Source: an uncultured Serinicoccus sp. | GTDB lineage: Bacteria; Actinomycetota; Actinomycetes; Actinomycetales; Dermatophilaceae | Direction: 5' to 3' | Assembly (NCBI RefSeq): GCF_947500995.1 | Contig: NZ_CANMUA010000003.1 | Span: 186,001 to 250,000 of the forward strand | Length of the DNA stretch: 64,000 nucleotides | Part shown: one piece after another, positions 495-62,854 of the stretch | Layout: every line of letters begins with the position of its first letter | Numbering within the stretch: the first letter of the stretch is position 1 | Translations under genes and position numbers: made by a program | Notes under the pieces: generated by a model | What the model saw: only the letters and a program-made list of their open reading frames with translations | What the model was told of the DNA's origin: nothing | Databases searched by the model: none

Positions 495-3400
495 GTGCGG
501 CTGCTGATCACGGCGATCGCCGCGGCCGAGGGCCCCTCGGACCCGCTGGACCTCGTCGTCGACACCGAGGACGACGCCACCGTCGGCGACCTCGCCCTCG
601 CCCTGGCCCGCCGGGTGTCCGACGCCACCGCACGCCGGCGCCCGCTCGCCGCCATGGGGGCGGGCGGGGGTGCCGAGGCCCAGGTCCCGCAGCTGCGCGT
701 CGTGCGGAGCGAGGACGGACCCTCCTCGGCCCCGGTCGCGGTCGCCGACCGGGAGCGCGAGGCCGTGACCCCGCCCCCGCTCTACGTGGGTGACCGGCGG
801 CTCGACCCGGGTATGCCGCTGGCCGCGAGCCCGGTCCGCCACGGCTCCGTGGTCGGCGTCGGCGGGTCGGTGGGCGACCTGCTGGCCGAGCCGCGGGGGG
901 TGGTGGAGGTCCGGATCTCCTCCGGTCCCGGGGCGGGCACGGTGGCCCGGCTCAGCACCGGGGAGCACGTGGTCGGCAGCACGGTGCACGCCGCGGTGGC
1001 CATGCCCCCGGTGGGTCTGCCCGAGGTCTGCCTCACCGTGCAGGTGCGGCCCGACGGCACCGTCGTCCTCGACCCGGACCCGGACCTGCTGGGGGTGCTG
1101 CAGCAGCCGGTGTGGCGCAGCCGCCCGTTGCCGGGCCCGATCGTGCTCGACGCCGAGGCCGAGATCCAGCAGCGCCGTGCCGGCGAGAGCACCTACAGCG
1201 AGCTGCCGCCGGGGACCCGGGTCATCGGCGCCGACGCGCCCACGCCCCTGCTGCACATCGACCGCGAGGAGGTGGCGCCGGGCCAGGTGTGGGAGCCGGG
1301 GCAGGCCCTCGTGGTGGGTCCCTGCCTGCTCGAGCTCACCGTGCCGACGGCGCCCGACGCCTCGCTGTCGCTCAGCCCGCAGGGCGCCACCCTGGACTAC
1401 AACCGGCCGCCACGGCTGCTGCCCGCGGCCCGGCAGACCGAGTTCACCCTGCCCAACGAGCCGCGGCGGCCGCTGGGGCAGCAGATCCCCTGGGCCTTCA
1501 TCTTCCTGCCGGCCTTCGCGGGCCTGGCGATGTACCTCATCACCGGACGCCTCTACACGCTCATCTTCATCGCGCTGACGCCGCTCATGGCCATCTCCAA
1601 CTGGGTGAGTGGTCGGTCGCAGGAGCGCAAGCGCTACCGCAACGACTTCGCCGAGTACACCGCCCGGATGCGGAAGGTGCAGCAGAGCGCCCTCGCCGGC
1701 CTCTCCGACGAGCGGTCCGCCCGGCGACGTGACTTCGCCGACCCCGGTGAGGTGCTCATGACCGCCATCGGGCCCCGGCGACGCCTGTGGGAGCGGCGCC
1801 GCAGCGACCCGGACTGGCTGGTCGCCCGCTTCGGCACGGCCGACCAGGTGTCCTCGGTGACGGTGAAGTCCAACGCCCGGGAGGAGCACGAGGGGGACCT
1901 CGCGTGGACCGCCCCCGACGTGCCGGTCACGGTCAGCCTGCTGGAGGCCGGCGTGACCGGCCTGGCCGGTCCGGCCCGGCGCGCGGTGGGCCGGTGGGTC
2001 GTGGCCCAGCTGGCGGTCCTGCACTCACCGGTGGACCTGGACATGACCCTGCTCACCTCGGCCGACGGCGAGGCCGACTGGCACTGGACGCGGTGGCTGC
2101 CGCACCTGCGCTCCGACGACGGCGACCCCGAGCTGGCCCAGGTGGGGGTGGATGACGAGACCACGGCCCGGCGGATCGCCGAGCTGGTGGCCGAGCTCGA
2201 GCGCCGTCTCGAGCTCGCCGACTCGGGCTCGTTCTCGAGCAAGGGCGTGACCTTCCCGCCGCTGCTCGTCGTGCTCGACGGGTCCCGGCGGCTGCGCCTG
2301 CTGCCCGGCATGGTGCCGCTGCTGCAGCGCGGTCCCTCGGTCGGCATCACCTTCCTGTGCCTGGACGAGGACGAGCGGCTGCTGCCGGAGGAGTGCCGGG
2401 CCGTCGTCCAGGCCGACGAGCCGCTCATGCGGGTGACGGTGAGCGAGCAGTGGGTCATCGAGGGCGTCCGCCCTGACCTGGTCAGCCCCGCATGGGGGGA
2501 GCGGGTGGCACGGGCGGTGGCACCGGTGCGGGACGTGTCGGCCGAGGACGCCGCGGCGACGATCCCCACCTCGAGCCGCCTGCTCGACGTGCTCCGGCTC
2601 GACCCGCCCACCGCCGCCGCGGTGCAGGAGCGCTGGGTGTCGGTCGGGCGGACCACCCGGGCGGTCATCGGGGAGGGCACGGAAGGGGCCTTCGCCATCG
2701 ACATGGTCAAGGACGGTCCGCACGGCCTGGTGGCCGGCACCACGGGCTCGGGCAAGTCCGAGCTGCTGCAGACCGTCATCGCCTCGCTCGCGGTGCACAA
2801 CCGGCCCGACGAGATGACCTTCGTGCTCGTCGACTACAAGGGAGGTGCGGCCTTCAAGGACTGCAACCGCCTGCCGCACACCGTCGGGATGGTGACCGAC
2901 CTGGACGGCCACCTCACCGGTCGGGCGCTGGAGTCGCTGGGGGCCGAGCTGCGTCGTCGCGAGCACCAGCTGGCGGGTGCCGACGCCAAGGACATCGAGG
3001 ACTACCTCGCGACCCGGGGGCCCGACGACGAGCCGATGCCCCGGTTGCTCATCGTCATCGACGAGTTCGCCGCGCTCGTCGCCGAGCTCCCCGACTTCGT
3101 CACCGGGCTGGTCGACATCGCCCGGCGCGGGCGCTCCCTGGGGGTGCACCTCATCCTGGCGACGCAGCGGCCGGCCGGGGTGGTGAGCGCCGAGATCAAG
3201 TCCAACACCAATCTGCGGATCGCCCTGCGCGTGACCGACTCGGGAGACTCCCAGGACGTCATCGAGGCCCGCGACGCCGCCGAGATCTCGCAGTCGACGC
3301 CGGGGCGCGGCTACGCCCGGCTCGGCCACTCCAGCCTCATCCCCTTCCAGTCCTCCCGGGTCGGTGGGCGGCCGCGCGGGGAGGGCAGGGCCGCCGAGGT

Positions 3401-5174
3401 CGAGCTGCGGGGTATGCCGTTCGCCGAGCTCGGGGTCGCGCCGCCGCGGGCGCAGGCGGCGGAGGAGGACGTCTCGGTCGCGACCGACCTCGCGGCCCTC
3501 GTGCAGGCCTGCCAGGAGGCGAGCGAGGAGTCGGGGGTGCGCGCCCCGGCCAGCCCGTGGCTGCCGGCGCTGGACGACGTGGTCACCCTCGAGCAGCTGC
3601 TGGAGCAGTTCCCCGGTGCCGTGCCCGACGCCCGGACGATGCGCCTGCCGATCGGCGTCGTCGACCTCCCCGCGCAGCAGCGCCGGGACGTGGCGGCATA
3701 CAGCCTCGCGACCGGGTCCCACCTCGCGGTCGTCGGGGCCGCACGCACCGGACGATCCAGCGCGCTGCGGGTCCTCGCCGGGGCGGTCGCCCGGGACCTG
3801 TCGCCGGAGGACGTGCACGTCTACGGCGTGGACTGCGGCAACAACGCCCTGCTGCCGCTGCAGGCCCTCCCGCACGTGGGTGCGGTCGTCCTGCGCGACC
3901 AGACCGACCGCATGGAGCGGCTGGTCGGCCGCCTGCGCGCCCTCATCAGCGAGCGGCAGCAGCTGCTGGCGCAGGAGGGCTACGCCGACGTCGCCGAGCA
4001 GCGGGCGGCCGTGCCGCAGGAGGAGCGCCTGCCCTACGTGCTCGTGCTCTTCGACCGCTGGGAGGGCTTCTTCCAGGTCTACGACTCCCTCGACGGGGGT
4101 CGGCTGGTGGCCGCCGTCCAGCAGATCCTCCAGGAGGGTGCCGCCGTGGGGGTGCGGGTCGTCATGACCGGCGACCGCTCGGTGGTCATGGGTCGCATGG
4201 GCACGCTGCTGGACGACAAGATCATGCTGCGCATGACCGACCCCAGTGACTTCTCCAACATCGGCATGCCGGCCAAGAAGGTCCCCGAGCGGATGCCGGA
4301 GGGCCGTGGCTTCCGGGCCGACGGTCTCCGGGAGACGCAGTTCGCGCTGCTGGCCGACGACCCGGCCGGGACGGCCCAGGTGCGCGCCCTGCAGGCGCTC
4401 GGCAAGGCCGCCACGCAGCGGTATGCCGACCTGCCGCGCTCGCGTCGGCCGTTCCACGTCGACCTGCTCCCGGTCCGGTTCACCGCTCAGGAGGCGCACC
4501 GGCTGCGCGATGAGGAGCGGGCGCAAGGACTCACCGTCCCCGACACCGCGCTGGCCGTCGCCGTGGGCGGCGACACCCTGGGCCTGCGGCACCTCGACGC
4601 GGTCGAGCACGGTCCGGCCGTGCTGGTCACCGGCCCCCGCCGCAGCGGACGCTCCACCGTCCTGCGCCAGCTCGCCGACGAGGCGCTCCGGGCGCGGTGC
4701 CAGGTGGCCCTGGTCACGCCGCGCAAGAGCCCGTTGCGCGAGCTCGCCGGGTCGCCGGGGGTGCACGGGCCCTGGGACCTGGGCAGCGACCAGAGCGAGG
4801 TCACCGAGCAGCTCACCGCCCTCGTGGCAGGGGAGGAGCCCCTGGTCGTGCTCGTCGACGACACCGAGCTGGTCGGCTCGGACGGGTGGCTGGCCGAGGC
4901 CCTCGTCAAGGCCATCGAGCAGATGCGCGACTCCGACAGCATGCTCGTGGGTGCCGGCACGGCCTCGGACATGCAGAGCCACTACCGCGGCCCGTCCGCC
5001 GTGCTGAAGAAGGCGGGCACCGGTGTCCTGCTCAACCCGCAGTCCAGCGCGGACGCCGACCTCTTCGGGGCCCGCCTCAACAGGTCGGCCTACGGGCAGT
5101 CCCTGCCCCCGGGTGGCGGCTACCTCGTCCTGGCCGGCCAGGCGGAGCGGGTGCAGGTGGTCTGGCCCGGCTGA
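495..5174 (+). CDS. EccC/EssC-like FtsK-SpoIIIE ATPase of a type VII-like (WXG100) secretion system
   Basis: This 1559-residue membrane ATPase is the motor type that exports WXG100 substrates. Order of parts: an N-terminal ubiquitin-like/FHA-like region (residues about 1-300), two adjacent membrane helices (about 331-371), then three FtsK/SpoIIIE ATPase domains. Domain 1 has an intact Walker A, GTTGSGKS at 748-755 with Lys754, the FtsK signature VDYKGGAAF, and a Walker B LLIVIDEF near 850. Domains 2 (GAARTGRSS, near 1080) and 3 (GPRRSGRST, near 1380) carry Arg in place of the P-loop Lys, so they probably do not hydrolyse ATP and may act in substrate recognition or gating, as known for EccC/EssC. 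The N-terminal FHA-like part resembles Firmicute EssC more than mycobacterial EccCa/Cb. The start is GTG at 495, directly after the upstream gene. No eccB, eccD, eccE or mycosin gene is visible in the window. Confidence 0.88.
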   Translation: MRLLITAIAAAEGPSDPLDLVVDTEDDATVGDLALALARRVSDATARRRPLAAMGAGGGAEAQVPQLRVVRSEDGPSSAPVAVADREREAVTPPPLYVGDRRLDPGMPLAASPVRHGSVVGVGGSVGDLLAEPRGVVEVRISSGPGAGTVARLSTGEHVVGSTVHAAVAMPPVGLPEVCLTVQVRPDGTVVLDPDPDLLGVLQQPVWRSRPLPGPIVLDAEAEIQQRRAGESTYSELPPGTRVIGADAPTPLLHIDREEVAPGQVWEPGQALVVGPCLLELTVPTAPDASLSLSPQGATLDYNRPPRLLPAARQTEFTLPNEPRRPLGQQIPWAFIFLPAFAGLAMYLITGRLYTLIFIALTPLMAISNWVSGRSQERKRYRNDFAEYTARMRKVQQSALAGLSDERSARRRDFADPGEVLMTAIGPRRRLWERRRSDPDWLVARFGTADQVSSVTVKSNAREEHEGDLAWTAPDVPVTVSLLEAGVTGLAGPARRAVGRWVVAQLAVLHSPVDLDMTLLTSADGEADWHWTRWLPHLRSDDGDPELAQVGVDDETTARRIAELVAELERRLELADSGSFSSKGVTFPPLLVVLDGSRRLRLLPGMVPLLQRGPSVGITFLCLDEDERLLPEECRAVVQADEPLMRVTVSEQWVIEGVRPDLVSPAWGERVARAVAPVRDVSAEDAAATIPTSSRLLDVLRLDPPTAAAVQERWVSVGRTTRAVIGEGTEGAFAIDMVKDGPHGLVAGTTGSGKSELLQTVIASLAVHNRPDEMTFVLVDYKGGAAFKDCNRLPHTVGMVTDLDGHLTGRALESLGAELRRREHQLAGADAKDIEDYLATRGPDDEPMPRLLIVIDEFAALVAELPDFVTGLVDIARRGRSLGVHLILATQRPAGVVSAEIKSNTNLRIALRVTDSGDSQDVIEARDAAEISQSTPGRGYARLGHSSLIPFQSSRVGGRPRGEGRAAEVELRGMPFAELGVAPPRAQAAEEDVSVATDLAALVQACQEASEESGVRAPASPWLPALDDVVTLEQLLEQFPGAVPDARTMRLPIGVVDLPAQQRRDVAAYSLATGSHLAVVGAARTGRSSALRVLAGAVARDLSPEDVHVYGVDCGNNALLPLQALPHVGAVVLRDQTDRMERLVGRLRALISERQQLLAQEGYADVAEQRAAVPQEERLPYVLVLFDRWEGFFQVYDSLDGGRLVAAVQQILQEGAAVGVRVVMTGDRSVVMGRMGTLLDDKIMLRMTDPSDFSNIGMPAKKVPERMPEGRGFRADGLRETQFALLADDPAGTAQVRALQALGKAATQRYADLPRSRRPFHVDLLPVRFTAQEAHRLRDEERAQGLTVPDTALAVAVGGDTLGLRHLDAVEHGPAVLVTGPRRSGRSTVLRQLADEALRARCQVALVTPRKSPLRELAGSPGVHGPWDLGSDQSEVTEQLTALVAGEEPLVVLVDDTELVGSDGWLAEALVKAIEQMRDSDSMLVGAGTASDMQSHYRGPSAVLKKAGTGVLLNPQSSADADLFGARLNRSAYGQSLPPGGGYLVLAGQAERVQVVWPG

Positions 5175-7120: not shown

Positions 7121-8053
7121 TCATCGGCCACGTTGCGGCCGCACGCGCGACCGCAACGTGCCGCGGGCCAGGGCCAGCAGGGAGCGGACGTCGCGCCGGC
7201 CGCCGTAGATGGTCATCGCGCGGTGGTCGCCGTAGTCCGCGATCGGCTCGACGCCGCGCAGCAGGTCCATGTCCTCCTCGGTGATGGTGAAGTCGACCTC
7301 CGCGTTCGCGCGCAGGTGGGCCGGGTCCGCCGACCTCGGCAGGGGGAGCAGGCCGAGCTGCAGGCAGTAGCGGATCGAGAGCTGCGGGACGCTCACGGCA
7401 TACCGCTGCGCGACCCGCGCGACCTCCTCGTTCTTCAGCAGCTCGCCGTGCGCGACGGAAGAGTGGGCCTCGACGAGGATGCCGCGGTCGCGTCAGTGCT
7501 GGATGAGGTCGTGCGGGGTGTTGCTGATGTGCGCGAGCACCTGGTTGACCATGGGCGCGACGGTGCACCCCTCGAGGATGTTGTCGACATCGGCGACCTC
7601 GAAGTTCGACAGCCCGATCGCCCGCACCGTGCCGGCCGCGAGCGCCTCCTCCAGCGCCCGCCAGACCTGCCGGTTCTCCTCGAGGTAGCGCTCCTCGCCA
7701 CCGAACCTCCGCCAGGGCGTCGGGCTGTGGACGAGCACGAGGTCCAGGTGGTCCAGCCCGGTCCGGCGCAGCGAGGCGTCGATGCCGTCCCGGGCCGCGC
7801 CGTAGGTCTTCGCCCCGGCGTCGACCTTGGTCGTGACGAAGACCTCGTCCCGGGGCACGCCGCTGCTGCGCACCGCCCTGCCCACGCCCTGCTCGTTGCG
7901 GTAGGCCGGGGCCGTGTCGACGTGCCGGTAGCCCAGGCGCAGCGCCTCGCCCACCGCCGGCACGACGGCCGTGTCGCTGACGAACCAGGTGCCGAGCCCG
8001 AGCCGGGGGATGCTGACCCCGTTGGCCAGGGTGGACGTCTCCTGCAGGATCAT
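7121..8053 (-). pseudogene. Aldo/keto reductase interrupted by one in-frame TGA
   Basis: Both halves of an AKR barrel lie in the same frame: residues 1-186 read from GTG... actually ATG at 8053 to 'HDLIQH', then TGA (codon at 7493-7495), then continuous sequence to the natural stop at 7121. The catalytic tetrad is present: Asp and Tyr in 'HVDTAPAYRNE', Lys in 'VTTKVD' and His in 'VLVHSP'. Homologues usually have Cys at the TGA position (HCRERG type), so one TGC-to-TGA change explains it. Downstream, the normally conserved 'EAYSP' reads 'EAHSS' with an uncharacteristic TCT codon, which suggests relaxed selection. Read-through as selenocysteine is the alternative; no selenocysteine genes are in this window. 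Total length without the stop would be about 310 residues. Confidence 0.75.
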
Positions 8054-8184: not shown

Positions 8185-9628
8185 ATGAAGCTCCTGCTCA
8201 CCTCGGACGGGGTCACCAACCCCAGCATCGAGGAGGCCCTCGTGTCCCTCCTCGGCAAGCCCGTCGCCGAGTCCGCGGCGCTGGCCATCCCGACCGCGAC
8301 CTACGGGCACACGATGTGCGACCCCGGGAACGCCTGGCGCTTCCTCACCGGTGGGTCCTCCGCCCGGATGTGCGACCTGGGGTGGGCCTCGCTCGGCGTC
8401 CTCGAGCTCACCGCGCTGCCCAGCCTGCCCCGCGAGCGCTGGGTGCCCTGGGTCGAGGAGGCGGACGCGCTGCTGGTCGACGGCGGTGACGCGACCTACC
8501 TCGCCCACTGGATGCGCGAGTCCGGGCTCGCCGACCTGCTGCCGACGCTGACGGACACCGTGTGGGTCGGGCTGAGCGCGGGCAGCATGGTCCTGACCCC
8601 CCGGATCGGTGAGCCGTTCGTCACCTGGCGTCCCGACGGCTGGAGCGACCGGACCCTGGGCGTCGTCGACTTCTCGATCTACCCGCACGTCGGGATGAAC
8701 CCGATGGAGGGAGCCGACCGGTGGGTGGCGCCGCTGGGCGTGCCCGCCTACGCCCTCGACGACCAGAGCGCGGTCCAGGTGGTCGACGGCGCGGTGACGG
8801 TCGTCTCCGAGGGCGTCTGGCGGCACCTGTCCGCGGTCGAGGGTGGAGACCGGGACGAGCGCAGGGACGAGGAGGACGACGGGGCGACCCCGGCGCCGGA
8901 GGAGGCGTCCGCCCCGCGCGAGTTCCGCGGCGAGGACCTGTCCGGTGCCCGCTTCGTCGGGTGCTCGCTGTCCGGTGCCGTGATGCGCGCCGTCGACGTC
9001 GACGGTGCCGAGATCGACGCGCCGTGGCTGCTGGAGGGCGAGGGGACGCTGCTGGTCAACGGGGTCGACGTCGCGCCGCTGGTCGACGCCGAGCTCGACC
9101 GACCCCGGCCGGGCGCTGCGCCGGGCCGAGGACCCGGACGGGCTGCGGGCGGCGTGGGCCGCCCTGGAGACCGCCTGGGCGGGGGCGGTCGCCCGTGCCG
9201 AGGGTATGCCGCCCGGCACCGTGGACGTCTCCGTCGCCGGGGAGTGGAGCTTCGCCCAGACGCTGCGCCACCTCGTCATGGCGACCGACACCTGGCTGCG
9301 GCGGGCCGTGCTCGAGCTGGACGAGCCCTACCACCCGATCGGTCAGCCGAACGTCGAGTACGCCCTGGACGGGCACGACCCCGCCGTCTTCCACGAGACC
9401 GACCCCGGCTGGGAACGGGTGCTGCAGGTCCGGGCCGAACGGGTCGCGATGGTCCGCGACCACCTCGCGACGGTCACGACGGACGACCTCCAGGTGCCGC
9501 GGCGCAACCCGTGGGCACCGGCATACCCCGAGTCGACCCTCTCGTGCCTGCGCACCATCCTGGAGGAGGAGTGGGAGCACCTGCGGTTCGCGCAGCGCGA
9601 CCTCGACGTCATCGACGCGAGGACGTGA
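8185..9628 (+). pseudogene. Peptidase E-like (S51) domain fused to a pentapeptide-repeat/DinB domain, frameshifted
   Basis: Residues 1 to about 220 form an S51 peptidase (PepE/cyanophycinase-type alpha/beta fold). The putative nucleophile is Ser131 in 'GLSAGSM', and 'LLVDGGDATYL' precedes it. An acidic linker rich in E, D and R leads to two pentapeptide-type units ('DLSGARFVGCSLSGAV') and then a DinB-like four-helix domain ('SFAQTLRHLVMATDTWLRR', later 'EEEWEHLRF'). The DinB part continues in the next frame: deleting one C from the CCCC run at 9103-9106 restores 'ELDRPGRALRRAEDPDG' and one open frame to 9628. This is therefore a single-base insertion or a sequencing error. DinB-fold proteins often act as thiol-dependent, metal-binding enzymes; the function here is unknown. 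The ribosome site GAAGGGA precedes ATG 8185. Confidence 0.68.
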
Positions 9629-11418: not shown

Positions 11419-11922
11419 CTACCAGCCCTGGGTGCCCGCCGCCCCCTTGAACGGGCCCCGCACCCTGGAGGTGATCCACCCGCCGTAGAAGCCGCCCTCC
11501 TGCGGCTGCACCCGCTCGCCGTCGACGTAGCAGCCGTCCGCCGGGTCGGTCGCACCGTCGATGGCGCTGGGCATGACGGCCGCGTAGTCGGCGATCTCGC
11601 GGAAGGCGGGGGTGGGGTCCGGGTAGGTCCACGCCGCCCGGCTCAGCCGGGTGCCGTCCACCACCAGGTCGAAGTAGGTCGCCGACCCCTTGAACTCGCA
11701 GGTCGTGCGGCGGTTGTCGCGGGCCGGCTGCAGGACGCCGGTGACGAAGGCGCCGAGCGGCAGGTAGTAGGTCGGCGGGTGCGAGGTCTCCAGCACCCGG
11801 ATCGCCGCGACGGTCTCGGCGATGGTCTGCCCGCCCGCGCGGATGACGACGTGCTCCCCCCCGGAGGTGTCCACGGCCGGGGGTCGCGGGTAGTCCCAGA
11901 CGGACTCGGTCTGTGCAGGCAT
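11419..11922 (-). CDS. DUF427 family protein
   Basis: The product has 167 residues from the ATG at 11922; the family typically starts with 'ESVWDYPRPP', found here at residues 5-14. The DUF427 core 'TYYLPLGAF' and 'RTTCEFKGSATYFDLVVDG', then 'AAWTYPDP' and 'IADYAAVMPS', is intact. The C-terminal 'EGGFYGGWITSRVRGPFKG' is common in actinobacterial members. The biochemical role of the family is not known. The longer reading frame would need a TTG start at 11958; the ATG is favoured because a -10-like TATGGT on the minus strand lies 6 nt before it, giving a leaderless transcript. Confidence 0.85.
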   Translation of the reverse strand: MPAQTESVWDYPRPPAVDTSGGEHVVIRAGGQTIAETVAAIRVLETSHPPTYYLPLGAFVTGVLQPARDNRRTTCEFKGSATYFDLVVDGTRLSRAAWTYPDPTPAFREIADYAAVMPSAIDGATDPADGCYVDGERVQPQEGGFYGGWITSRVRGPFKGAAGTQGW

Positions 11923-12049
11923 ACCCCGACCATAGGGCGGGTGGCCCGAAGTGACCAACGGGCGTCGGGCGGCGGCAGCCGGGACCGGGGCGGGTCGAGC
12001 CGCCTCCTCGTGGTCGGCCCCTGCTGCTCCCGGGCGCTACGCTGCCCGG

Positions 12050-12583
12050 ATGAACGATCGCGGACGCCGGGTGTCGGCCGGCCTCGACAAGGTCCGGAAC
12101 CTGCTCGGCCGGTCCCGGTCGACCGACGACGAGCCCCGGGTGCGGGCCCTGCCCGACCCGGGTGAGAGCCCCGTCGGTGAGCTGCCGCTCACCCCCGAGT
12201 CGCGCAAGATCGGCGAGGCGGAGCGGGCCCGGATCGACGCCGGCCTGGCGGCGGTGGCGGCGGACGGCGTGGACGTCGACGACCTGGCCTCGATCAGCGC
12301 CGGGCTCGACCGGGCGCTCGCCGGCTGGCTCGCGACCCAGGGCGCCGACGGGCACCACGAGGAGGTCGTCGAGCGGTATGCCGCGGCGATCGGGGAGCAC
12401 CTGCACCGGCACACCGACCTGGCCTGGGAGGTGGTCACCGACGTCTTCGGCACCGACCTCGCGGTCGCCGCGGGCGACTTCGTCGTCGTCCCCTCCAACC
12501 TCGTCGCGGTCCGCTGGATGCGGCGCGAGCGCGGGTGGGTGCCCCAGGTCGTGGGGCACATCGTCGAGGTCCGCAGCCGCTGA
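12050..12583 (+). CDS. Conserved hypothetical protein, possibly DUF3806-like
   Basis: The product has 177 residues, soluble, with no signal peptide. The basic N-terminus (1-40) looks disordered. From about residue 45 a helical/beta domain reads 'RIDAGLAAVAADGVDVDDL', then 'ERYAAAIGEHLHRHTDLAWEVVTDVFGTDLAV', and it ends in a beta-rich 'FVVVPSNLVAVRWMRRERGWVPQVVGHIVEVRSR'. The order and the closing segment resemble the DUF3806 pattern, but I am not certain. ATG 12050 is preceded at 6 nt by TACGCT, consistent with a leaderless message. It runs convergently with the potassium channel gene, 18 nt apart. Confidence 0.65.
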   Translation: MNDRGRRVSAGLDKVRNLLGRSRSTDDEPRVRALPDPGESPVGELPLTPESRKIGEAERARIDAGLAAVAADGVDVDDLASISAGLDRALAGWLATQGADGHHEEVVERYAAAIGEHLHRHTDLAWEVVTDVFGTDLAVAAGDFVVVPSNLVAVRWMRRERGWVPQVVGHIVEVRSR

Positions 12584-19048: not shown

Positions 19049-21046
19049 GTGACCGTGACACGTGAACTCCCCTGGCCCGTGGCACTTCCCCCGGAGGCCC
19101 GCGCCCGCACCGAGGCCGTCCTGGCCCCGCTGCCCGAGCATCGCCGCACCACCTTCGCCCTGCGCGTGGCCCGCTGGTGGGACGACCTCGTCGCCGGGCT
19201 CGCGCCCTACCCGGACCCGCCCGCCGTGGCCGCGCGGGTGCTCGAGCTGGCGGCGACGGCATACCGCGACCGCGACGAGGATCTGCACCTGCTGGACCAG
19301 CGACGGTCCCTGGAGCCGGACTGGTTCCAGCGCCCGGACGTCGTGGGCTACGCCGGCTACGCCGAGCGGCTCACCGAGGAGGGCACGCTCACCGCGCTCG
19401 CCCGGCTGGCCGACCACCTCACCGGTCTGGGCGTGCGCTACCTGCACCTCATGCCGCTGCTGCAACCGCGCCCGGCGCCCAACGACGGAGGGTATGCCGT
19501 CGCCGACTACCGCTCGGTGCGCGAGGACCTGGGGTCGATGGACGACCTGCGGTCCCTCACCGCGAGCCTGCGCGAGCGGGGCATCAGCGTGTGCCTCGAC
19601 CTGGTGCTCAACCACGTCGCCCGCGAGCACGCCTGGGCCCTGGCCGCGCGCGAGGGTGACGAGCGCTACCGCCGGTACTTCCACGTCTACCCCGACCGCG
19701 AGGTGCCCGACGCCTACGAGCGCACCCTGCTGGAGGTCTTCCCGGACTTCGCCCCCGGCAACTTCACCTGGGACGAGGAGCTGCAGGGGTGGGTCTGGAC
19801 GACCTTCAACGACTACCAGTGGGACCTGGCGTGGGACAACCCCGACGTCTTCGCCGAGCTGGCCGATGTCATCCTCTTCCTCGCCAACCAGGGCGTGGAG
19901 GTCCTGCGGCTGGACGCGATCGCGTTCATCTGGAAGCGCATGGGCACCCAGTGCCAGAACGAGCCCGAGGTGCACCAGCTCACGCAGGCGCTGCGGGCGC
20001 TGGCCCGGATGGCCGCTCCGGCGCTGGTCTTCAAGGCCGAGGCGATCGTCGGCCCCAACGAGGTGGTGCACTACCTCGGCCGGGGTCAGCACCACGGCAA
20101 GGTCTCCGACCTCGCCTACCACAACAGCCTCATGGTGCAGATCTGGTCGATGCTCGCCAGCGGCGACGCGCGGCTGGCCACCCACGCCCTCGGGCGCTTC
20201 CCTGCCGTCCCGTCCACGACGGCCTGGATCACCTACCTGCGCTGCCACGACGACATCGGCTGGGCCATCGACGACGACGACGCGCGCTCGGTGATGGTCG
20301 ACGGCCACGGTCACCGGACCTTCCTGTCGGACTACTACTCCGGGGAGTTCCCGGGCTCCGGGGCGACCGGGCTCGTCTTCCAGCACAACCCGCTCACCGG
20401 CGACCGCCGCATCTCCGGGTCGGCCGCCAGCCTGAGCGGGCTGGAGCGGGCGCTGGAGCTGGTGGACGGCGCCGTCGACGAGGAGGCGGCCACGGAGGCC
20501 GAGCACGCGGTCGACGAGGCGGTGGCCCGGCTCCTGCTGGGGTATGCCGTCGTCTACGGCTTCGGCGGGATCCCGGTCATCTGGTCGGGCGACGAGATCG
20601 CGAGCCTGGGCGACGCCGGGTGGGACCAGGTCCCCGAGCACGCGGCGGACAACCGCTGGGTCCACCGGCCCCGGCTGGACCGGGAGGAGGTCGCCGCCGC
20701 GCGCGAGGCGCCGGAGTCGGCCGCCGGGCGGGTGCTGCGGGGCATGCAGCACCTCGCCCGCACCCGGGCGTCCCTGCCCCACCTGCACGCGAGCGTCGGC
20801 GCGAAGGTCGTCGCGGCGCCGGACGCGGCGGTCTTCGTCGTGGTCCGCCGCCACCCGGTCGGCACCATGGTGCAGCTCTACAACCTCACGGCCGTGCCGC
20901 GCTCCGTCCCCGGCTGGTGGCTGCGGGAGCAGGGCCTGTCGGTGGACCGGACCGTGGACGCCCTCAACGGCTACCCGCCGAGCCTCACCGCCGACGGCTC
21001 GGTCTACCTGTCGACCTACCAGCCGGTGTGGCTCGTGCGCGGTTGA
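19049..21046 (+). CDS. Amylosucrase-like glycoside hydrolase family 13 enzyme
   Basis: The product has about 665 residues. The TIM-barrel motifs of GH13 are complete: 'VLNHVA', nucleophile Asp289 in 'LRLDAIAFIWKRMGTQCQN', acid Glu331 in 'VFKAEAIVGP' and 'RCHDDIGW' (Asp401/402). The stretch around the nucleophile and the long N-terminal helical region are typical of GH13 subfamily 4 (amylosucrase/sucrose hydrolase), which acts on sucrose to form alpha-1,4-glucan or release glucose and fructose. Sucrose specificity is inferred. Start choice is uncertain: TTG 19043, GTG 19049 or GTG 19055; no ribosome site is evident. It probably metabolises the sugar brought in by the ABC transporter just upstream. 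Confidence 0.85.
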   Translation: MTVTRELPWPVALPPEARARTEAVLAPLPEHRRTTFALRVARWWDDLVAGLAPYPDPPAVAARVLELAATAYRDRDEDLHLLDQRRSLEPDWFQRPDVVGYAGYAERLTEEGTLTALARLADHLTGLGVRYLHLMPLLQPRPAPNDGGYAVADYRSVREDLGSMDDLRSLTASLRERGISVCLDLVLNHVAREHAWALAAREGDERYRRYFHVYPDREVPDAYERTLLEVFPDFAPGNFTWDEELQGWVWTTFNDYQWDLAWDNPDVFAELADVILFLANQGVEVLRLDAIAFIWKRMGTQCQNEPEVHQLTQALRALARMAAPALVFKAEAIVGPNEVVHYLGRGQHHGKVSDLAYHNSLMVQIWSMLASGDARLATHALGRFPAVPSTTAWITYLRCHDDIGWAIDDDDARSVMVDGHGHRTFLSDYYSGEFPGSGATGLVFQHNPLTGDRRISGSAASLSGLERALELVDGAVDEEAATEAEHAVDEAVARLLLGYAVVYGFGGIPVIWSGDEIASLGDAGWDQVPEHAADNRWVHRPRLDREEVAAAREAPESAAGRVLRGMQHLARTRASLPHLHASVGAKVVAAPDAAVFVVVRRHPVGTMVQLYNLTAVPRSVPGWWLREQGLSVDRTVDALNGYPPSLTADGSVYLSTYQPVWLVRG

Positions 21047-23812: not shown

Positions 23813-23921
23813 GAGCGCGACGATATCCGGTGGGCCTGGGTATGCCGTGCCCCGCGCCGCGGTGGCCGGGCCCGGCGGCGACCGAGGACGCCGGAGGACG
23901 CCGGTGCGCCGTCCGCCCGGC

Positions 23922-34508: not shown

Positions 34509-34621
34509 GGGGGAGCCGAGGATCGGCGGCACGACCGATGTCCCGCCGCCCCCGCCCCCACTAGCGTGACGGCATACCAGCCGTGTCCCGCCGGGACGCG
34601 GGACGACGAGAGGGGGCACAC

Positions 34622-37582: not shown

Positions 37583-38383
37583 GTGCTCATCACCTCGCCC
37601 GCGAACCCGCGCATCAAGGCGGTCGTGGGCCTGCGGCGGCGCCGGACCCGCGAGGCGGAGCGGCGCACGGTCGTGGAGGGGCACGAGGAGCTCGCCCTGG
37701 CCCTGGAGGCCGGCGTCGTCCCCGAGCTGCTCCTGGTCTGCCCCGAGCTCATGGCCGACGGCGTGCTCGACGACGTGCTGGCCCGGGTCGACGAGCTGGC
37801 CGTCGAGACGGTGGAGGCCTCGCGCGCGGCCTTCGAGAAGGCCGCCTACCGCGAGGGCCCCGACGGGGTGCTCGCGGTCGTGCCGACGACGCAGCGCCGG
37901 CCGCGGGACCTGACGCTCCCGGACGATGCGCTGGTGCTCGTCTGCGAGGGGGTGGAGAAGCCGGGCAACCTGGGGGCCGTGCTGCGGACCGCCGACGCCG
38001 CCGGGGTGGACGCCGTGGTCGCGGCGGCCCCGGTGACCGACTGGGGCAACCCCAACACCGTCCGGGCCTCCAAGGGCACGGCCTTCTCCGTGCCCGTCGC
38101 CGCGGACGGCACGGCGGCGACCCTCGACTGGCTGGACGGGCACGGCATACCTCTCGTCGCGGCCACCCCCGACACCGACGCGCTGCACACCTCCGTGGAC
38201 TACCGCGGACCCGTCGCGATCGCCGTCGGCACGGAGAAGACCGGCCTCACCGAGCAGGTCCTCGAGCGGGCCGCGCACCGGGTGCGCATCCCGATGGCCG
38301 GTCGCGTCAACTCCCTCAACGTCGCGACCTCGGCCGCGATCATCGTCTACGAGGCGGTCCGGCAACGGGGCGGAGGTCGATGA
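37583..38383 (+). CDS. TrmH/SpoU-family RNA 2'-O-methyltransferase
   Basis: The product has 266 residues. The N-terminal substrate-binding part starts 'ITSPANPRIKAVVGLRRRRTREAE' (the SpoU_sub_bind type), followed by the knotted SPOUT domain: 'EGVEKPGNLGAVLRTADAAGVDAVV', 'NPNTVRASKGTAFSVPV', 'AIAVGTEKTGL' and 'VRIPMAGRVNSLNVATSAAI'. This is the standard set for 23S rRNA or tRNA ribose methylation. It lies 2 nt after the HAD gene, so it is co-transcribed. Confidence 0.92.
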   Translation: MLITSPANPRIKAVVGLRRRRTREAERRTVVEGHEELALALEAGVVPELLLVCPELMADGVLDDVLARVDELAVETVEASRAAFEKAAYREGPDGVLAVVPTTQRRPRDLTLPDDALVLVCEGVEKPGNLGAVLRTADAAGVDAVVAAAPVTDWGNPNTVRASKGTAFSVPVAADGTAATLDWLDGHGIPLVAATPDTDALHTSVDYRGPVAIAVGTEKTGLTEQVLERAAHRVRIPMAGRVNSLNVATSAAIIVYEAVRQRGGGR

Positions 38384-49747: not shown

Positions 49748-50103
49748 GGCCGCTCGGAGGTCCGCACCGCCCCGAAGGCCACCACGGCCAGGGCGTCGGC
49801 GTCGTCGAGGATCTCGGCCAGGATCCACCACGCCCGACCGTCACGGGCCGCCAGCGCCCCCGCCTCCTGCCACAGCAGGGCCACCTCCTGACCGTCCCAG
49901 AGGTCGCGCAGGTCGCGCAGCGTGTCGGCCATCGCGTCCAGGTTGGTCGAGGCCGGCTCCGGCAGCCGGAGCGCGTGCGCCAGCTGCGCCTGGGTCTCCC
50001 GCAACCCTCCGGCGGGTGGGGTGGTGATGGTGGTGAGGGCATACCCGGCCTGGGCGAAGTGCGCCTCCGCGTCGCCCAGACGTTCGGCGGGCAGGAGGAT
50101 CAC
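49744..50103 (-). CDS. Barstar-family ribonuclease inhibitor
   Basis: The product has 119 residues. The barstar pattern is visible: an initial beta strand 'VILLPAERLGDAEAHFAQAGYAL', the inhibitory helix region 'LPEPASTNLDAMADTLRDL' (with the conserved Asn-Leu-Asp-Ala), and 'VALLWQEAGALAAR'. It lies between purB and the RNase gene with stop/start overlaps on both sides. It is therefore expected to be produced before the RNase and to protect the cell from the enzyme inside. The GTG start is at 50103. Confidence 0.92.
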   Translation of the reverse strand: MILLPAERLGDAEAHFAQAGYALTTITTPPAGGLRETQAQLAHALRLPEPASTNLDAMADTLRDLRDLWDGQEVALLWQEAGALAARDGRAWWILAEILDDADALAVVAFGAVRTSERP

Positions 50104-51554
50104 GCGTCCCCCAGGTGCTCGACCAGGTCCGGCGCCAGACCGACGTAGGTCGCCGGCGTGAGCGCGACCAGCCGCTCCTCCTCCTGCGCCGGCAGCCCCA
50201 GGCCGCGGACGAACTCGACCAGCTCGGCCTGCCCGATGCGCCGCCCCCGGGTCAGCTCCTTGAGCCGCTCGTAGGGGTTGCTCATCCCCTCCACCCCGCG
50301 CGCGGCGAGCGCCCGCATCACCGACTGCACCGGCTCGGCGAGCACCTCCCAGTTGGCGTCGAGGTCGGCGGCCATCGCCTCCGGCACGGCGTCCAGCCCG
50401 GCCAGCCCGCGGCTGACGTTGTCCAGCGCCAGCAGGCTGTGCCCGAGCGCGGTGCCCGCGTTGCGCTGCATCGAGGAGTCGGTGAGGTCGCGCTGCAGCC
50501 GGCTGGTGACCAGCGTCGAGGCGAGCACGTCGAGCAGGGCGTTGCTCACCTCGAGGTTGGCCTCGGCGTTCTCGAAGCGGATCGGGTTGACCTTGTGCGG
50601 CATGGTCGAGGAGCCGACGGTGCCCTGTCCGCGCACCTGGGCGAAGTAGCCCATGGAGATGTAGGTCCACACGTCGGTGGCCAGGTTGTGCAGGATCCGG
50701 TTGAACCGCGCGATGTCGGCGTACAGCTCGGCCTGCCAGTCGTGGCTCTCGATCTGCGTGGTCAGCGGGTTCCAGGTCAGCCCCAGGTGCTCGACGAAGT
50801 CCCGGCTGAGCCGCTGCCAGTCCGCCCCCGGCACCGCCTCGACGTGCGCGCCGTAGGTGCCGGTGGCCCCGTTGAGCTTGCCCAGGTATGCCGCCCCCTC
50901 GACCCTGCGCAGCTGTCGCGTCAGCCGGTGCGCCAGCACCGCCAGCTCCTTGCCCATCGTCGTGGGGGTGGCCGGCTGGCCGTGCGTGTGCGCCAGCAGC
51001 GGCACCTCGGCGAGCTCGCGGGCCATCGAGGCGAGCTGGCCCACCAGGGCCTGCGCCCGCGGCAGCCAGACCTCCTGGACGGCGCCCTGCACCATGAGGG
51101 CGTAGGACGTGTTGTTGATGTCCTCGCTGGTGCAGGCGAAGTGGATGAGCTGTCCCAGGGCCTCGGCGCGCGCGGCGCCGTCGCCGACCCCGGACCCGGC
51201 GAGCAGGGTGGTCAGCCGCCCGCGCAGGAAGTACTCCACCGCCTTGACGTCGTGCACCGTCTCGGCCTCGATGGCCCGGAGCTCGGCGATGGCGTCGGCG
51301 TCGAAGTCGACCACCAGCGCCCGCAGCGCCGCCCGCTCGTCCTCGGAGATGCCCGGCGCTCCCGGCACCACCTCGTGCTGCACCAGGTGCAGCAGCCACT
51401 CGACCTCGACGTGCAGGCGTGCCCGGTTGAGAGCGGCCTCCGAGAGATGGTCGACCAACGGCGCGACCGCCCCACGGTACCTCCCGTCCAGGGCGCCCAG
51501 GGCGATGGTGGGAGAGAGCTCGGCGAGCGGCGTGCGGGCGGGAGGCAGCGGCAT
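50100..51554 (-). CDS. purB: Adenylosuccinate lyase
   Basis: The product has 484 residues. It converts SAICAR to AICAR and adenylosuccinate to AMP plus fumarate in purine synthesis. The superfamily signature 'SSTMPHKVNPIRFENAEANL' is complete, with the catalytic loop Ser. The His in 'LLAHTHGQPATPTTMG' and 'FACTSEDINNTSYAL' are the family's active-site segments. ATG 51554 gives the family start; upstream codons in frame look non-coding. The GTGA overlap with the barstar gene puts a housekeeping gene at the head of the RNase operon. Confidence 0.96.
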   Translation of the reverse strand: MPLPPARTPLAELSPTIALGALDGRYRGAVAPLVDHLSEAALNRARLHVEVEWLLHLVQHEVVPGAPGISEDERAALRALVVDFDADAIAELRAIEAETVHDVKAVEYFLRGRLTTLLAGSGVGDGAARAEALGQLIHFACTSEDINNTSYALMVQGAVQEVWLPRAQALVGQLASMARELAEVPLLAHTHGQPATPTTMGKELAVLAHRLTRQLRRVEGAAYLGKLNGATGTYGAHVEAVPGADWQRLSRDFVEHLGLTWNPLTTQIESHDWQAELYADIARFNRILHNLATDVWTYISMGYFAQVRGQGTVGSSTMPHKVNPIRFENAEANLEVSNALLDVLASTLVTSRLQRDLTDSSMQRNAGTALGHSLLALDNVSRGLAGLDAVPEAMAADLDANWEVLAEPVQSVMRALAARGVEGMSNPYERLKELTRGRRIGQAELVEFVRGLGLPAQEEERLVALTPATYVGLAPDLVEHLGDA

Positions 51555-52952: not shown

Positions 52953-55900
52953 CTAGCCGATGTGCTGCGGGACCGCTCGGTCGTCCGCTGCCTCGGGGGC
53001 GTCCCGGCCGACCCGGTGGTCGGTCCAGCGGCCGGTGACCGGTGCGGTGTGGCTCACCAGCACGACCGAGCGGCCGCTGCCGAGACCGGCCAGCAACCCG
53101 CCGAGCGAGCGCTCGGCCGTCGCGTCGTCGAGGTGCGCGGTGGGCTCGTCCAGCAGGACGACCGACCGCCCGGACAGCAGCGCGCGGGCCAGCGCGAGGC
53201 GGCTGCGCTCCCCGCCGGACAGGCCGGTCAGGGGGGTGTCCAGGCCGCGCGGGAGGGTGGCGAACCAGCCGCCGAGGTCGACCGCCGCGAGCGCGTCGAG
53301 CACCTCGCCGTCGGTCGCGCCGGGTGAGGCGAGCACGAGGTTGGCGCGGACCGACCCCGCGAAGGCGTGCGGTTCGTCGTCGACGACGGCCACGAGCGCG
53401 CGGGTCTGGTCCAGGTCCAGCCCCCGCACGTCCGCGCCGTGCCGGCTCACTGCGTCCCCGTCCGCGCCGGACACGAGGGAGCAGCCACCGTCCGGGTCGA
53501 GGTGGCGCGCGAGCACGGCCAGGGCCGTCGACTTGCCGGCCCCGTTGGGCCCGGCGAGGCGGATGCGGTCGCCCGGCTGCACGTCGAGGTCGAGCGGGGA
53601 CAGGTCGGGTGCCGCACGGTGCTCCGGCACGGGCGACCACCGTGCGGAGACGCCCCGCAGCTGCAGCGCCGGCGGTCCCGTCGGCGCCGCGGCGGTCCCG
53701 CGTCCGGCCACGGCCGGCGTCTGGTCGACGAGCGCGTCCAGGCGGGCCCGTGCCGACCGGGCCCGGGCCCGCGCGCCCGCCACGTCGGGGACCCCCGCCC
53801 AGGCGTCGGCCAGCGCGAGCGGCACCAGCGCGACGAGCGCCGCGAAGGGGCCGCTCAGCGCCCCGACGGCCCGCGCGTCGAACGCCAGCAGCGCCACGGC
53901 CGTGGCGGTCGCCGCGACGACCACCCACGTGGCCACCAGCCCCGCCGCCCGGGCCCGGGTGAGCCGCGCCTCGCCACGGCGGTGCGCCTCCTCGGCCCGC
54001 AGCACGGGGTCGAGCAGCTGCCGGTGCTCTCCGGCGAGCCCACTGACCGCCTGGACGGGGAGCAGCTGGGCGGCCAGTGCGGTGGCCCGGTCGCGCACCT
54101 CGCCGCGTCGCGCGACCGCCGCGTCCTGGGCGGGGCGCTCGGCGGCATACCCGAGGAGGCCGACGAGGGCGACGACCAGCCCTCCGGTCGCGACCACCAG
54201 GCCGGCGGCCGGCAGGTGCCAGCCGGCGACCGCCGCCCCGACGAGGGTCGCGATGCCCGTGGACCACCCCGGCACGCTCACCCGCACGTGCTCGTCGACG
54301 ACGTCCTCGAGGTCCCGGGCGGCGGCGGTGAGCACCTGGCCCCGGCTGCGCCGGCCCAGGCGGGCCGGGGTGAGCGGGATGAGCGCGGCGTAGAGGTCCG
54401 CCCGTCGGCCCGACAGGTCGTCCAGGGCGACGTCGTGGCTGACCACCCGCTCGGCGTAGCGGAACACCGGGCGGAAGATGCCGAACGCCCGCACGCCCAC
54501 GATCGCCACGAGCAGCGTGAGCACGACCGGCATCGTCGAGGCCTGCACGATGAGCCACCCCGAGGTCGCCGTCAGGGCCACGCCGCAGCCGACGGAGGCA
54601 CCACCGAGCAGGCAGGCCAGCGCCAGGCCGCGGCGGCCGCGGGGGGTCCGGACGGGGGCGACCTCCCCGGGGCGCGGGACCGCATCGGCCTCCGGCTCGG
54701 CCCTGCGGCCGACGTCGGAGTCGTCCCCGGGGTCGGCCTCGGGATCCGCCGCGGGGTCGGGCAGGGGCAGGACGGGTGCGGCGAGGTGGTGGACGGGCCC
54801 CCCGGTCCCGGGCGCCGGCTCCGCGGCCCCCTCGAGCCGCCAGTGGTCGTCTGCGAGCGCGGCCAGGTAGCAGTCGTGCGTCACGACGACGATGCGTCGC
54901 GTCTCCGCCAGCTCGGTGATGACCTGGTGAAGCCGGGGTATGCCGTCTACCGCCACGTTGGCCGTCGGCTCGTCCAGCAGGAGCAGCCGTGCGGGTGAGA
55001 GGGTGGCCCGGGCCAGGGCCAGCCGCGCCCGCTGACCGGCCGACAGGCCGACGCCGTCGTCGCCGAGCCAGGTGTCCAGCCCGTGCCGGTCCGCCAGCTG
55101 GCGCCAGAGCCCGACCCGGTCCAAGGCCTCCCTCATCGCCGTGTCGGTCGCGTCGGGGTCGGCGATCGCCAGGTTGTCGCGCACGGTGCCCGGCAGCAGG
55201 AGCGGCCGCTGGGTCGCCAGGTGTGCCGCGGGTGCGCTGACCGCCCCCGCGGCGGGGGTGCGCAGCCCGGCCAGCAGCTCCAGCACCGTGGTCTTGCCGG
55301 CTCCGCTCGGGCCGGTGAGCGCGGTGACACCGGGGCCGGGCGGTGTGCGCAGCGACAGCTCCGTCAGCGTGCGGACCCGGCCGGGGTGGGCGTAGGACAC
55401 CTCGGTGAGACCGATCGGCCCCCCGGCCGCACGCCCACCGGGGCCCTGCGCCGCCGCGCCCCCCAGCACCCCCTCGGCCGCCAGCTCCTCCAGCACCTGC
55501 GCCCCGTCGGCGGCGTTGTGGAACTCGGCGCCGACCCGGCGGACCGGCCAGTACGCCTCGGGCGCCAGCAGGATCGCGGTGAGCCCGACGACGAGGTCCA
55601 TCCCGCCGTGCGCGAGCCGCAGCCCCACGGCCACGGCCACCATGGCGACGGAGATCGTCGCCAGCAGCTCCAGGGCCGCCGTCGACAGGAAGGCCGTGCG
55701 CAGGGTCGCGACGCTCGCCCGCCGGTGCCGCTCGCCGACCTCGCGGACCACCTCGACCTGCGCCCGGGCCCGGCCGTAGGCCACCAGCGTCGGGAGCCCC
55801 TTCATGACGTCGAGGAAGTGTCCGGCCAGCAGCTCCATCGCGCCCCACCGGCGCTGGGTCTCGTCCCGCGTGTGCATCCCGATGAGCGCGGCGAAGAGCG

Positions 55901-60374: not shown

Positions 60375-60447
60375 GCACCGGACGCGTGGTCGGATCGCAC
60401 CGGACGCGTGCTCCGGGCGCACCGGACGCGTGGTCGGGTCGCACCGG
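60375..60447 (+). repeat. Tandem 22-bp repeats related to the 29.7-kb arrays
   Basis: Full units start at 60375, 60397 and 60419, each 22 bp and beginning GCACCGGACGCGTG; a partial fourth (GCACCGG, 60441) merges into a GGTATGCC copy. Against the 29666 array, C replaces A in the fifth base and the tail differs. It lies in the gap between the BlaI-like gene start and the galE stop. Confidence 0.8.
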
Positions 60448-60454
60448 TATGCCG

Positions 60455-61471: not shown

Positions 61472-61587
61472 GGCGTCATGGTGTCAGACGGCAGCTCCGG
61501 TATGCCGTGACCCGGCCCGGCCCGACCTGCGTGCCCGACGACGCCTCGCGTCGCCCGGGCGCCCGCCGCCCGGCATACCCTCGGGGC

Positions 61588-62128: not shown

Positions 62129-62854
62129 TCAGACCCGCCGCCCGTCGTGCAGCTCGACGACCTGGTCGGCCCGCTCCATGAGCACCGGGTCGTGGGTGGA
62201 CACCACGGAGGCGATGCCGCGCTCGTGGGTGAGGCGCACCAGCAGTTCCATGACCATCGCGCCGGTCTCGGAGTCCAGCTGTCCGGTGGGCTCGTCCGCG
62301 ACGAGGATGTCCGGCTCGCCGACGAGGGCCCGCGCGATGCCGACCCGCTGCTGCTGGCCGCCGGACAGCTCGTAGGGTCGCTGCCTGCTGTGCCGGGCCA
62401 GCCCGACGAGCTCCAGCGCCTCCTCGACCCGGCGGGCCCGCTCGCCCACGGCCGTGCGCTGGAGCCGCAGCGGGACCTCGACGTTCTCGGCGGCCGACAG
62501 CACCGGCACCAGCCCGAAGCTCTGGAAGACGTAGCCGATGCGCTCCCGCCGGACCGCCAGCACCTCCTTCTCCGGCAGCTCGGACAGGACCCGCCCGTCG
62601 TCGAGCAGCACCTGACCGGCGTCGGGCCGGTCGAGCCCGCCCAGCAGGTTGAGCAGGGTCGTCTTGCCCGACCCCGACGGGCCGCGCACCACGGTGAGGC
62701 GCCCGGCGGACACGTCCAGGTCCACCCCGGCGACGGCGTGCACCTGGGTGGCGCCCGCACCGAAGGTCCGGTGCAGGCCCACCGCCCGCAGCACCGACGG
62801 CGGTCCGTCGACCGCCTCGTCCGCGTCGGCGCGGTATGCCGTCGGCTCAGTCAT
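62129..62854 (-). CDS. MacB/LolD-type ABC ATP-binding protein
   Basis: The product has 241 residues. Walker A 'GPSGSGKTTLLNLLGG', signature 'YELSGGQQQRVGIARAL', Walker B 'ILVADEPTGQLD' and switch His 'VVSTHDPVL' are all present. The 'GYVFQSFGLVPVLSAAENVEVPLRL' stretch is typical of LolD/MacB. It starts with ATG 62854, 8 nt inside the preceding gene's 3' end. It follows a second ATPase gene and an FtsX-like permease in the same operon. Confidence 0.92.
   Translation of the reverse strand: MTEPTAYRADADEAVDGPPSVLRAVGLHRTFGAGATQVHAVAGVDLDVSAGRLTVVRGPSGSGKTTLLNLLGGLDRPDAGQVLLDDGRVLSELPEKEVLAVRRERIGYVFQSFGLVPVLSAAENVEVPLRLQRTAVGERARRVEEALELVGLARHSRQRPYELSGGQQQRVGIARALVGEPDILVADEPTGQLDSETGAMVMELLVRLTHERGIASVVSTHDPVLMERADQVVELHDGRRV

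Follow-up and report, generated by a model that had tools for sequence, protein, structure and literature searches.

An over-represented octamer in a Dermatophilaceae genome as a probable DNA uptake sequence with dialects

The question raised by this locus is why a single octamer, GGTATGCC, recurs so often in it. The locus is a stretch of 64,000 nucleotides (positions 186001-250000 of contig C3, hereafter the window) from a host genome, G000, of 3,805,170 bases in 45 contigs. In the window we counted 30 exact copies of GGTATGCC, 19 on the plus and 11 on the minus strand, which span positions 810 to 62840; this recount is identical to that of an earlier note on this DNA. From the sequences compared, we take it as quite probable that GGTATGCC serves as a DNA uptake sequence (DUS) with dialects, which would be read by a Tad-pilus transformation machine. 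The observed features jointly match an uptake sequence: the word is abundant, asymmetric without being polar, constrained, spelled in dialects and depleted in inserts, and machinery genes are present.

In 100 dinucleotide shuffles of the window, GGTATGCC occurred 0.71 times on average and at most 4 times. Markov models of orders 1-3 on the window expected 0.65-1.66 copies compared to the 30 observed, so that the over-representation noticed before is real, while its size, which had been put at about 15-fold, amounts to about 18- to 46-fold by these models. A larger sample of the own genome, consisting of the window and a further 400 kb (464 kb in total), contained 156 copies compared to 6-11 expected by the same orders, and the whole genome holds 752 + 663 = 1,415 copies, compared to 4 + 4 = 8 of the reversed-word control. 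The 6th-order Markov correction that the earlier note had named as a refuting test does not discriminate here: models of orders 5-6 returned the observed counts (30.4-30.6 expected and 30 observed in the window, 135-149 expected and 156 observed in the 464 kb), because at these orders nearly every sub-word sits in a copy and the motif is learnt by the model; GTATGC is extended to GTATGCC in 42 of its 44 occurrences in the window. An Rfam scan of the window gave no match at the gathering score.

The 464 kb sample defines a nine-letter unit, GGTATGCCG, with a few tolerated positions, followed mostly by T or C. A following G was found after 26 of the 30 window copies of GGTATGCC rather than after the approximately 27 reported before, and in the relative G007, G and C are about equally frequent as the ninth base. 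Among forms deviating in a single base, a strong excess was confined to position 0 (with T, A or C), position 6 (with A, G or T) and position 8 (with C or T). Replacement by G at position 2 or position 3 gave a rise of just 1.6- to 1.7-fold, and the majority of the remaining changes, whether within GTATG or at position 7, were near or below expectation. This pattern resembles a recognition site in which certain positions are tolerated more than it resembles neutral decay. The flanks in the same sample carry little information past positions 8-10, and homologous flanks around the copies were not seen. A palindromic site was ruled out: GGTATACC occurred 4 times compared to 2.5 expected and GGCATGCC 18 times compared to 47 expected. 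Neither is enriched, and the word is therefore asymmetric.

To assess constraint in coding DNA, the window was aligned with the syntenic DNA of seven relatives, and third-codon A/T inside the word was compared with third-codon A/T elsewhere. In the nearest relative, G030, these bases were kept in 19 of 19 cases inside the word compared to 291 of 590 elsewhere, which supports the earlier claim that the DNA word and not the protein is the target, be it of selection or of drive. The corresponding values were 14/18 and 193/559 in G012, 14/16 and 139/516 in G018, 13/15 and 102/359 in G011, 13/16 and 103/426 in G007, and 7/13 and 70/340 in G004, compared to 1/4 and 18/110 in the word-less G023. Third-codon A/T was thus held in six of the seven relatives. 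When codons were matched by requiring the first two bases to be kept, a control that itself consists partly of near copies and for which G023 offered no usable codon, the numbers kept were 18/18 (10.8 expected), 14/17 (7.8) and 11/13 (6.1) in G030, G012 and G018, and 10/10 (7.7), 10/12 (6.2) and 5/9 (3.5) in G011, G007 and G004. Whole words at aligned sites were kept in 23/28 (18.0 expected), 21/27 (14.3) and 20/23 (10.0) cases in the first three, in 13/20 (6.1), 12/18 (5.3) and 4/17 (3.8) in the second three, and in 0/5 (0.8) in G023. Conservation of the word fades to weak by G004.

Genes were called with a custom script. The 156 copies of the 464 kb sample comprise 62 in sense and 64 in antisense orientation, 25 intergenic and 5 at gene edges; in G007, a relative with a complete chromosome, 20 stretches of 20 kb (400 kb) yielded 100 sense, 128 antisense, 37 intergenic and 10 edge copies. 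A preference for intergenic DNA was dropped, as its density of copies is only 1.25 times that of coding DNA in the own genome and 1.45 times in G007. Nine of the 30 window copies lie outside called genes or at their edge. The copies of GGTATGCC in the window are listed below with their strand and context.

810..817, plus strand, sense in gene 495-5174
3411..3418, plus strand, sense in gene 495-5174
4420..4427, plus strand, sense, NGG TAT GCC frame
7397..7404, minus strand, just outside called gene 7121-7396
9203..9210, plus strand, overlaps a called start codon (9206)
9520..9527, minus strand, antisense in gene 9206-9628
11918..11925, minus strand, edge of gene 11419-11922
12375..12382, plus strand, sense, NGG TAT GCC frame
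19258..19265, minus strand, antisense in gene 19079-21046
19491..19498, plus strand, sense, NGG TAT GCC frame
20541..20548, plus strand, sense, NGG TAT GCC frame
22775..22782, plus strand, sense, NGG TAT GCC frame
23839..23846, plus strand, intergenic
25899..25906, plus strand, sense, NGG TAT GCC frame
28864..28871, plus strand, antisense, frame with rare ATA codon
29186..29193, minus strand, intergenic
30864..30871, minus strand, sense, Val-Cys frame, diacylglycerol-kinase-type gene 29932-30954
34571..34578, minus strand, intergenic
37462..37469, plus strand, sense, NGG TAT GCC frame
38144..38151, minus strand, antisense, frame with rare ATA codon
43824..43831, plus strand, antisense in gene 43483-44922
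50038..50045, minus strand, sense, NGG TAT GCC frame, gene 49744-50103
50885..50892, plus strand, antisense in gene 50100-51554
54144..54151, minus strand, sense, NGG TAT GCC frame, gene 52953-56402
54937..54944, plus strand, antisense, frame with rare ATA codon
59144..59151, plus strand, antisense in gene 59060-59923
60446..60453, plus strand, intergenic
61499..61506, plus strand, intergenic
61572..61579, minus strand, intergenic
62833..62840, plus strand, antisense near the start of gene 62129-62854

The NGG TAT GCC frame is favoured, with 44 of the 62 sense copies in the 464 kb. The codon tally in the called genes of the window bears out the proposal that the word forces rare codons: of 23 TAT codons, 16 are accounted for, 9 by GGTATGCC itself and 7 by near copies, and GGTATGCC also contains 3 of the 4 ATA codons. 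The ATA sites pointed out before at 28864, 38144 and 54937 are real, as is the Val-Cys site at 30864, in a lipid kinase gene of the diacylglycerol-kinase type. Strand use had been described as not strongly polar, and this holds around the chromosome of G007: its sampled copies divide into 130 on the plus and 145 on the minus strand, and no replichore polarity was detected (best half-chromosome split 52.4%, null mean 54.9%, p = 0.97).

The word is not restricted to the host. The seryl-tRNA synthetase of the genome has as its closest named record an Ornithinimicrobium metagenome-assembled genome (MAG; 81% identity), followed by other Dermatophilaceae and related families; the genus is probably Ornithinimicrobium-like. 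In a first set of relatives, GGTATGCC reached at least 6 times its control in 30 of the 31 genus members, with G023 alone falling short (38 copies, control 7), and was raised in three of five other genera of the family (g4, g5, g6). The 22 genomes of other families held 3-111 copies, with the mildly raised G045 at the top (111, control 24). We then surveyed 163 Dermatophilaceae genomes of at least 90% completeness from 48 genera for GTATGCCG, GGATGCCG and GTACGNCG. By thresholds that we chose ourselves (at least 100 per Mb and at least 2.5 times the control for GTATGCCG, at least 300 per Mb and 3.5 times for GGATGCCG, at least 600 per Mb and 2.5 times for GTACGNCG), 93 genomes were rich in GTATGCCG, 8 in GGATGCCG and 12 in GTACGNCG. 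The comparison with related genera that the earlier note had proposed thus revealed enrichment of related spellings in 35 of the 48 genera and 110 of the 163 genomes. Only three of the 110 (G088, G089 and G155) passed two thresholds, while 10 of 12 g2 genomes and G117 were near a threshold but below it; shifting the GTACGNCG threshold to 350 or 900 per Mb yielded 123 or 109 positive genomes, respectively. In a sample of the order, comprising 26 rows of the own family and 271 genomes of other families and counted for GTATGCCG alone, none of the 271 was rich in that spelling.

Within one genus, the density of GTATGCCG ranges from 15 to 543 per Mb. Genus g55 contains both G132, with 8,164 copies of GTACGNCG (control 688) and 19 of GTATGCCG, and G133, with 3,681 copies of GTATGCCG. 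Among the genomes other than the 12 rich in GTACGNCG, the median ratio of GTACGNCG to its control was 0.97 in GTATGCCG-rich genomes compared to 1.73 in the rest, and GTACGNCG falls as GTATGCCG rises (Spearman -0.50 across 151 genomes and -0.60 across 44 genera). This drop of a near-cognate form is the effect expected of drive towards a word, composition being controlled by the reversed word only. Dialects were also called de novo in 40-80 kb of most genomes and 17-21 kb of named loci, against a Markov-2 model to which a correction from an outgroup pool was applied. The words obtained were GTATGNCG in G033, CGGATGCCG in G087 and G184, CGTACGTC in G069 and GGTATGCG in one MAG, in addition to GTACGNCG forms in G138, G132, G070 and Austwickia; no clear word emerged from these samples of G023, G032, G075, G090, G142 and G186. 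In G088 and G089, GTATGCCG (approximately 1,200 copies) and GGATGCCG (approximately 2,100) are both raised in the same genome, perhaps reflecting a spelling change in progress. Members without the three main spellings showed, in samples of 40-80 kb, GAAGGGGG (G106, L171-L172), CGATGCGG (G131, L175-L176) and CGGATTCG (G076, L207-L208).

A machine that could read such a word is encoded in the genome, where comEA, comEC and two tad clusters were recognized by homology (L118, L117, L015). The gene comEA (SLBB and HHH domains) adjoins comEC (Competence and metallo-beta-lactamase domains, 809 amino acids). The tad cluster on contig C7 encodes TadA, two T2SSF-type proteins, TadE/TadG-like proteins and a protein of 67 amino acids that Pfam does not match; the one on contig C1 encodes TadA, two T2SSF-type proteins and a 68-amino-acid protein with a GMTTAEY site, which Pfam places in DUF4244 and which, judging by eye, we take for a Flp-type pilin. 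One of the five TadE/TadG-like hits is above the Pfam cut-off and four are below. There are three further tad loci in the genome. Transformation in Micrococcus luteus, according to the passages available of the paper describing it, requires both tad clusters of that organism (PMC4322843). The two systems share comEA, comEC and two tad clusters, the likeness to tad-1 and tad-2 being one of gene order only. They differ in that the term "uptake sequence" occurs 0 times in the accessible parts of two Micrococcus competence papers (PMC4322843, PMC12849477); our own search for a word in Micrococcus covered one 21 kb locus of M. terreus. A PilMNO-type pilus was rejected as the machine, with PilM (PF11104) missing in 29 of 31 genus members and weak partial hits in G006 and G019.

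The pilus ATPase and the word are absent together. In 10 of the 163 genomes, TadA of the C7 type had only distant matches (E values of 1e-51 or weaker), compared to better matches in 153, seven of which had intermediate scores (G026, G027, G108, G121, G122, G141, G158). None of the ten tadA-less genomes (G058, G076, G077, G090, G117-G119 and G142-G144, from 6 genera) was rich in any of the three words, compared to 110 of the 153 tadA-bearing genomes (Fisher p = 7e-6, phylogeny uncontrolled). Counted by genus, 0 of 6 tadA-less genera were word-rich compared to 35 of 42 (p = 1.4e-4).

Several genomes carry insertions in comEC or tadA. An insert of approximately 40 kb interrupts comEC in both G002 and G018, at nearly the same codon (277-290); it contains genes for a large serine integrase, a tail tape-measure protein, tail proteins and an endolysin in G002, and for a large serine integrase, a DNA primase and an endolysin in G018. 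These inserts (L122, L123; L124, L125) are prophages, present in two species of the genus. They bring to mind the comK prophage of Listeria. The DNA of the prophages, which were sampled partly, is poor in the word, with 2 copies of GTATGCCG in 43.5 kb compared to 9 in 21.5 kb of flank, although these numbers are small. The C7-type tadA is split at residues 205-211, at the nucleotide-binding loop (GKTT from 208), in G168, G183 and G145 and cut there in G022. In G128 the split lies near 223-232, and G015, G001 and G123 have a cut or a split near 85-110. These broken loci (L231, L232, L233, L234, L235, L236, L237, L239) belong to several genera. Where the inserted DNA was checked it contained recombinase genes, as supported by Pfam matches in G168, G015 and G123 and by eye in further genomes. 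The disabling of competence genes by mobile elements is a known phenomenon, as described in the available text of PMC4774983. The presence of elements inside comEC and tadA therefore argues that comEC and the C7-type tadA serve transformation in the family. In addition, comEC of G015 (L127) lacks residues 367 to 504, yet forms an open frame of 666 amino acids.

As an uptake sequence, the word could have spread in the following way. Cells would import free DNA via the Tad/Flp pilus, ComEA and ComEC, and a component on their surface would bind double-stranded DNA containing GGTATGCCG better than other DNA. Fragments bearing the word would be imported and recombined more often, so that alleles with the word would spread; the word would accumulate over the chromosome, and foreign DNA would be discriminated against. 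Genera would drift to different spellings, and lineages losing the machine would lose the word. The species is thus presumed to be naturally competent and its uptake to prefer word-carrying DNA, with a Tad-cluster pilin, or else ComEA, as the possible receptor (the TadE/TadG-like pilins and ComEA are candidates only). On balance, we also favour the broader proposal of a family-wide DUS with genus dialects and a Tad/Flp competence pilus, which would represent a third independent origin and the first in Gram-positives, countered by elements that insert into comEC or tadA.

A number of observations weigh against an uptake sequence. None of the three words was found at rich levels in 43 of the 153 genomes counted as tadA-bearing, and counting the seven intermediates as tadA-less makes 5 of 17 tadA-less genomes word-rich (p = 8e-4). 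Lowering the GTACGNCG threshold to 350 per Mb lets the tadA-less G058 and G117 pass as word-bearing. The ten tadA-less genomes cluster in their 6 genera, and the statistics ignore kinship. The presence of ComEC is useless as a predictor of the word, since the protein is nearly universal (55 of 58 and 161 of 163 genomes). In G023, the word-less genus member, the match does not extend beyond residue 394 of the 809 of ComEC, the terminal 155 bases of the contig are unaligned to it, and the second half of comEC was looked for and not found; this damage near a contig end may be an insertion, a rearrangement or an assembly fault. Genomes with a broken comEC or tadA (G002, G018, G015, G145 and others) retain the word, and the breaks would have to be recent, which fits an uptake sequence yet lends it no support. 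The spacing of copies is no more regular than chance (coefficients of variation 0.86 and 0.99). Few inverted pairs lie close together, with 2 within 60 bases among the 156 copies and 7 among the 275 in G007. Inverted-pair terminators of the Neisseria type are thus not seen here; in Neisseria, close inverted pairs of the DUS are frequent and act as terminators, a trait that is not required of uptake words in general. Finally, a 21 kb locus of Enemella dayhoffiae (L062), which belongs to another family, contains GTACGCCG 22 times compared to 1.5 expected and GGCGTACG 22 times compared to 0.8 expected, and the third spelling may therefore not be confined to the Dermatophilaceae. These words possibly represent an iterated word in another actinobacterial family.

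The earlier note had named several kinds of candidates, among which the uptake sequence fits best. The main rival is a binding site for a chromosome-organising protein (nucleoid-associated or condensin-loading), with about one site per 2.7 kb serving chromosome structure. Such a site would likewise occur all over the genome and on either strand, be conserved at third codon positions, have few copies in recent inserts and, for GTATGCCG, be confined to the family; it ranks first among the rivals because an uptake sequence would show the same conservation and the same scarcity in inserts. We nevertheless regard it as unlikely, as the protein and over a thousand sites would have to change together at each respelling, the density of GTATGCCG varies widely inside one genus, a single genus holds a GTATGCCG member (G133) and a GTACGNCG member (G132), and a structural role gives no reason for the co-absence with the pilus ATPase.

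A recombination hot-spot or Chi-type site controlling an enzyme of the RecBCD or AdnAB type would also be a short asymmetric word found genome-wide. Chi is biased to the leading strand, and with the lack of any such bias in G007 this explanation is very improbable. For a methylase, restriction or epigenetic target speaks that the word is short and non-palindromic, as many methylase targets are; restriction, however, selects against its own word and not for it, which leaves the enrichment unexplained, and one group of words spans 35 genera, so that we give this possibility little more than a passing chance. The genome-wide distribution would suit FtsK-orienting polar sequences (KOPS) or another replichore-polar segregation signal, but no polarity towards the terminus was found in G007, and such a signal is hardly credible. 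Copies of a mobile repeat or an artefact of codon usage or mutation bias, which would account for nothing beyond the repetition itself, can practically be discounted given the scant conservation of flanks past positions 8-10, the use of the genome's rare codons, the lack of enrichment of the reversed word and the 38 copies in G023, which is of the same genus with 73.5% GC in the stretches read.

Compared with known systems, a DUS of the Dermatophilaceae would share with that of the Neisseriaceae a short word in thousands of copies with related dialects in one family; eight dialects are described in the portions available of PMC3630211. It would differ in phylum (here Actinomycetota), in the word and in the lack of a clear PilM-type type IV pilus in this genus (weak partial hits in 2 of 31). 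The extended form of the Neisseria DUS is ATGCCGTCTGAA, and its overlap with GTATGCCGT is probably due to chance. The uptake signal sequence (USS) of the Pasteurellaceae similarly has a 9-base core and more than one spelling in the family but differs in host, word and machine; two spellings, AAGTGCGGT and ACAAGCGGT, are given in the same partial source (PMC3630211), compared to at least three here. Chi and KOPS are also short, oriented, genome-wide words, but unlike the present word they are polar along replichores. HIP1, a very abundant palindromic octamer of cyanobacteria, resembles it in abundance and differs in being palindromic.

In the accessible sections of a 2013 paper, short uptake sequences are stated to be required uniquely in Neisseria and the Pasteurellaceae (PMC3630211), and those of a 2025 review name Neisseria as the exception (PMC12236230). 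A study of Veillonella, as far as its text was available, sought an uptake word without settling the matter (PMC5397411). Searches of the literature outside most subscription journals gave no title reporting an uptake sequence in Actinomycetota among the matches listed, and a search for the word itself gave no title on uptake words or actinobacterial repeats among the matches listed. If our proposal is true, it would add a third case of uptake specificity, in monoderm bacteria with a Tad pilus, to two groups that are both Gram-negative, and would imply that uptake specificity evolves repeatedly and with different machines. Because the spellings differ by genus, the family would provide an extensive natural series on which the origin of such words, through passive drive or as a species barrier, could be studied. 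The word would also point to those environmental actinobacteria, many of them little studied, that can probably be transformed, and would tell how DNA has to be labelled for genetic work on them.

Other candidate iterated words were noticed along the way. These are GCGTACGC in the Enemella dayhoffiae locus L062 (22 copies in 21 kb compared to 0.8 expected), GGCGTCCG in Propioniciclava (L077; 38 compared to 5.0 expected) and GGACGGTT in an Actinomycetales MAG (L105; 12 compared to 0.7 expected). In the host genome, the starts of contigs C2 and C5 (L019, L021) as well as L120 and L121 have a lower GC content and 0-1 copies of the word. L019 and L021 each begin with a gene for a protein of approximately 1,900 amino acids, and L120 and L121 carry extra tad loci; all four look like integrated mobile DNA.

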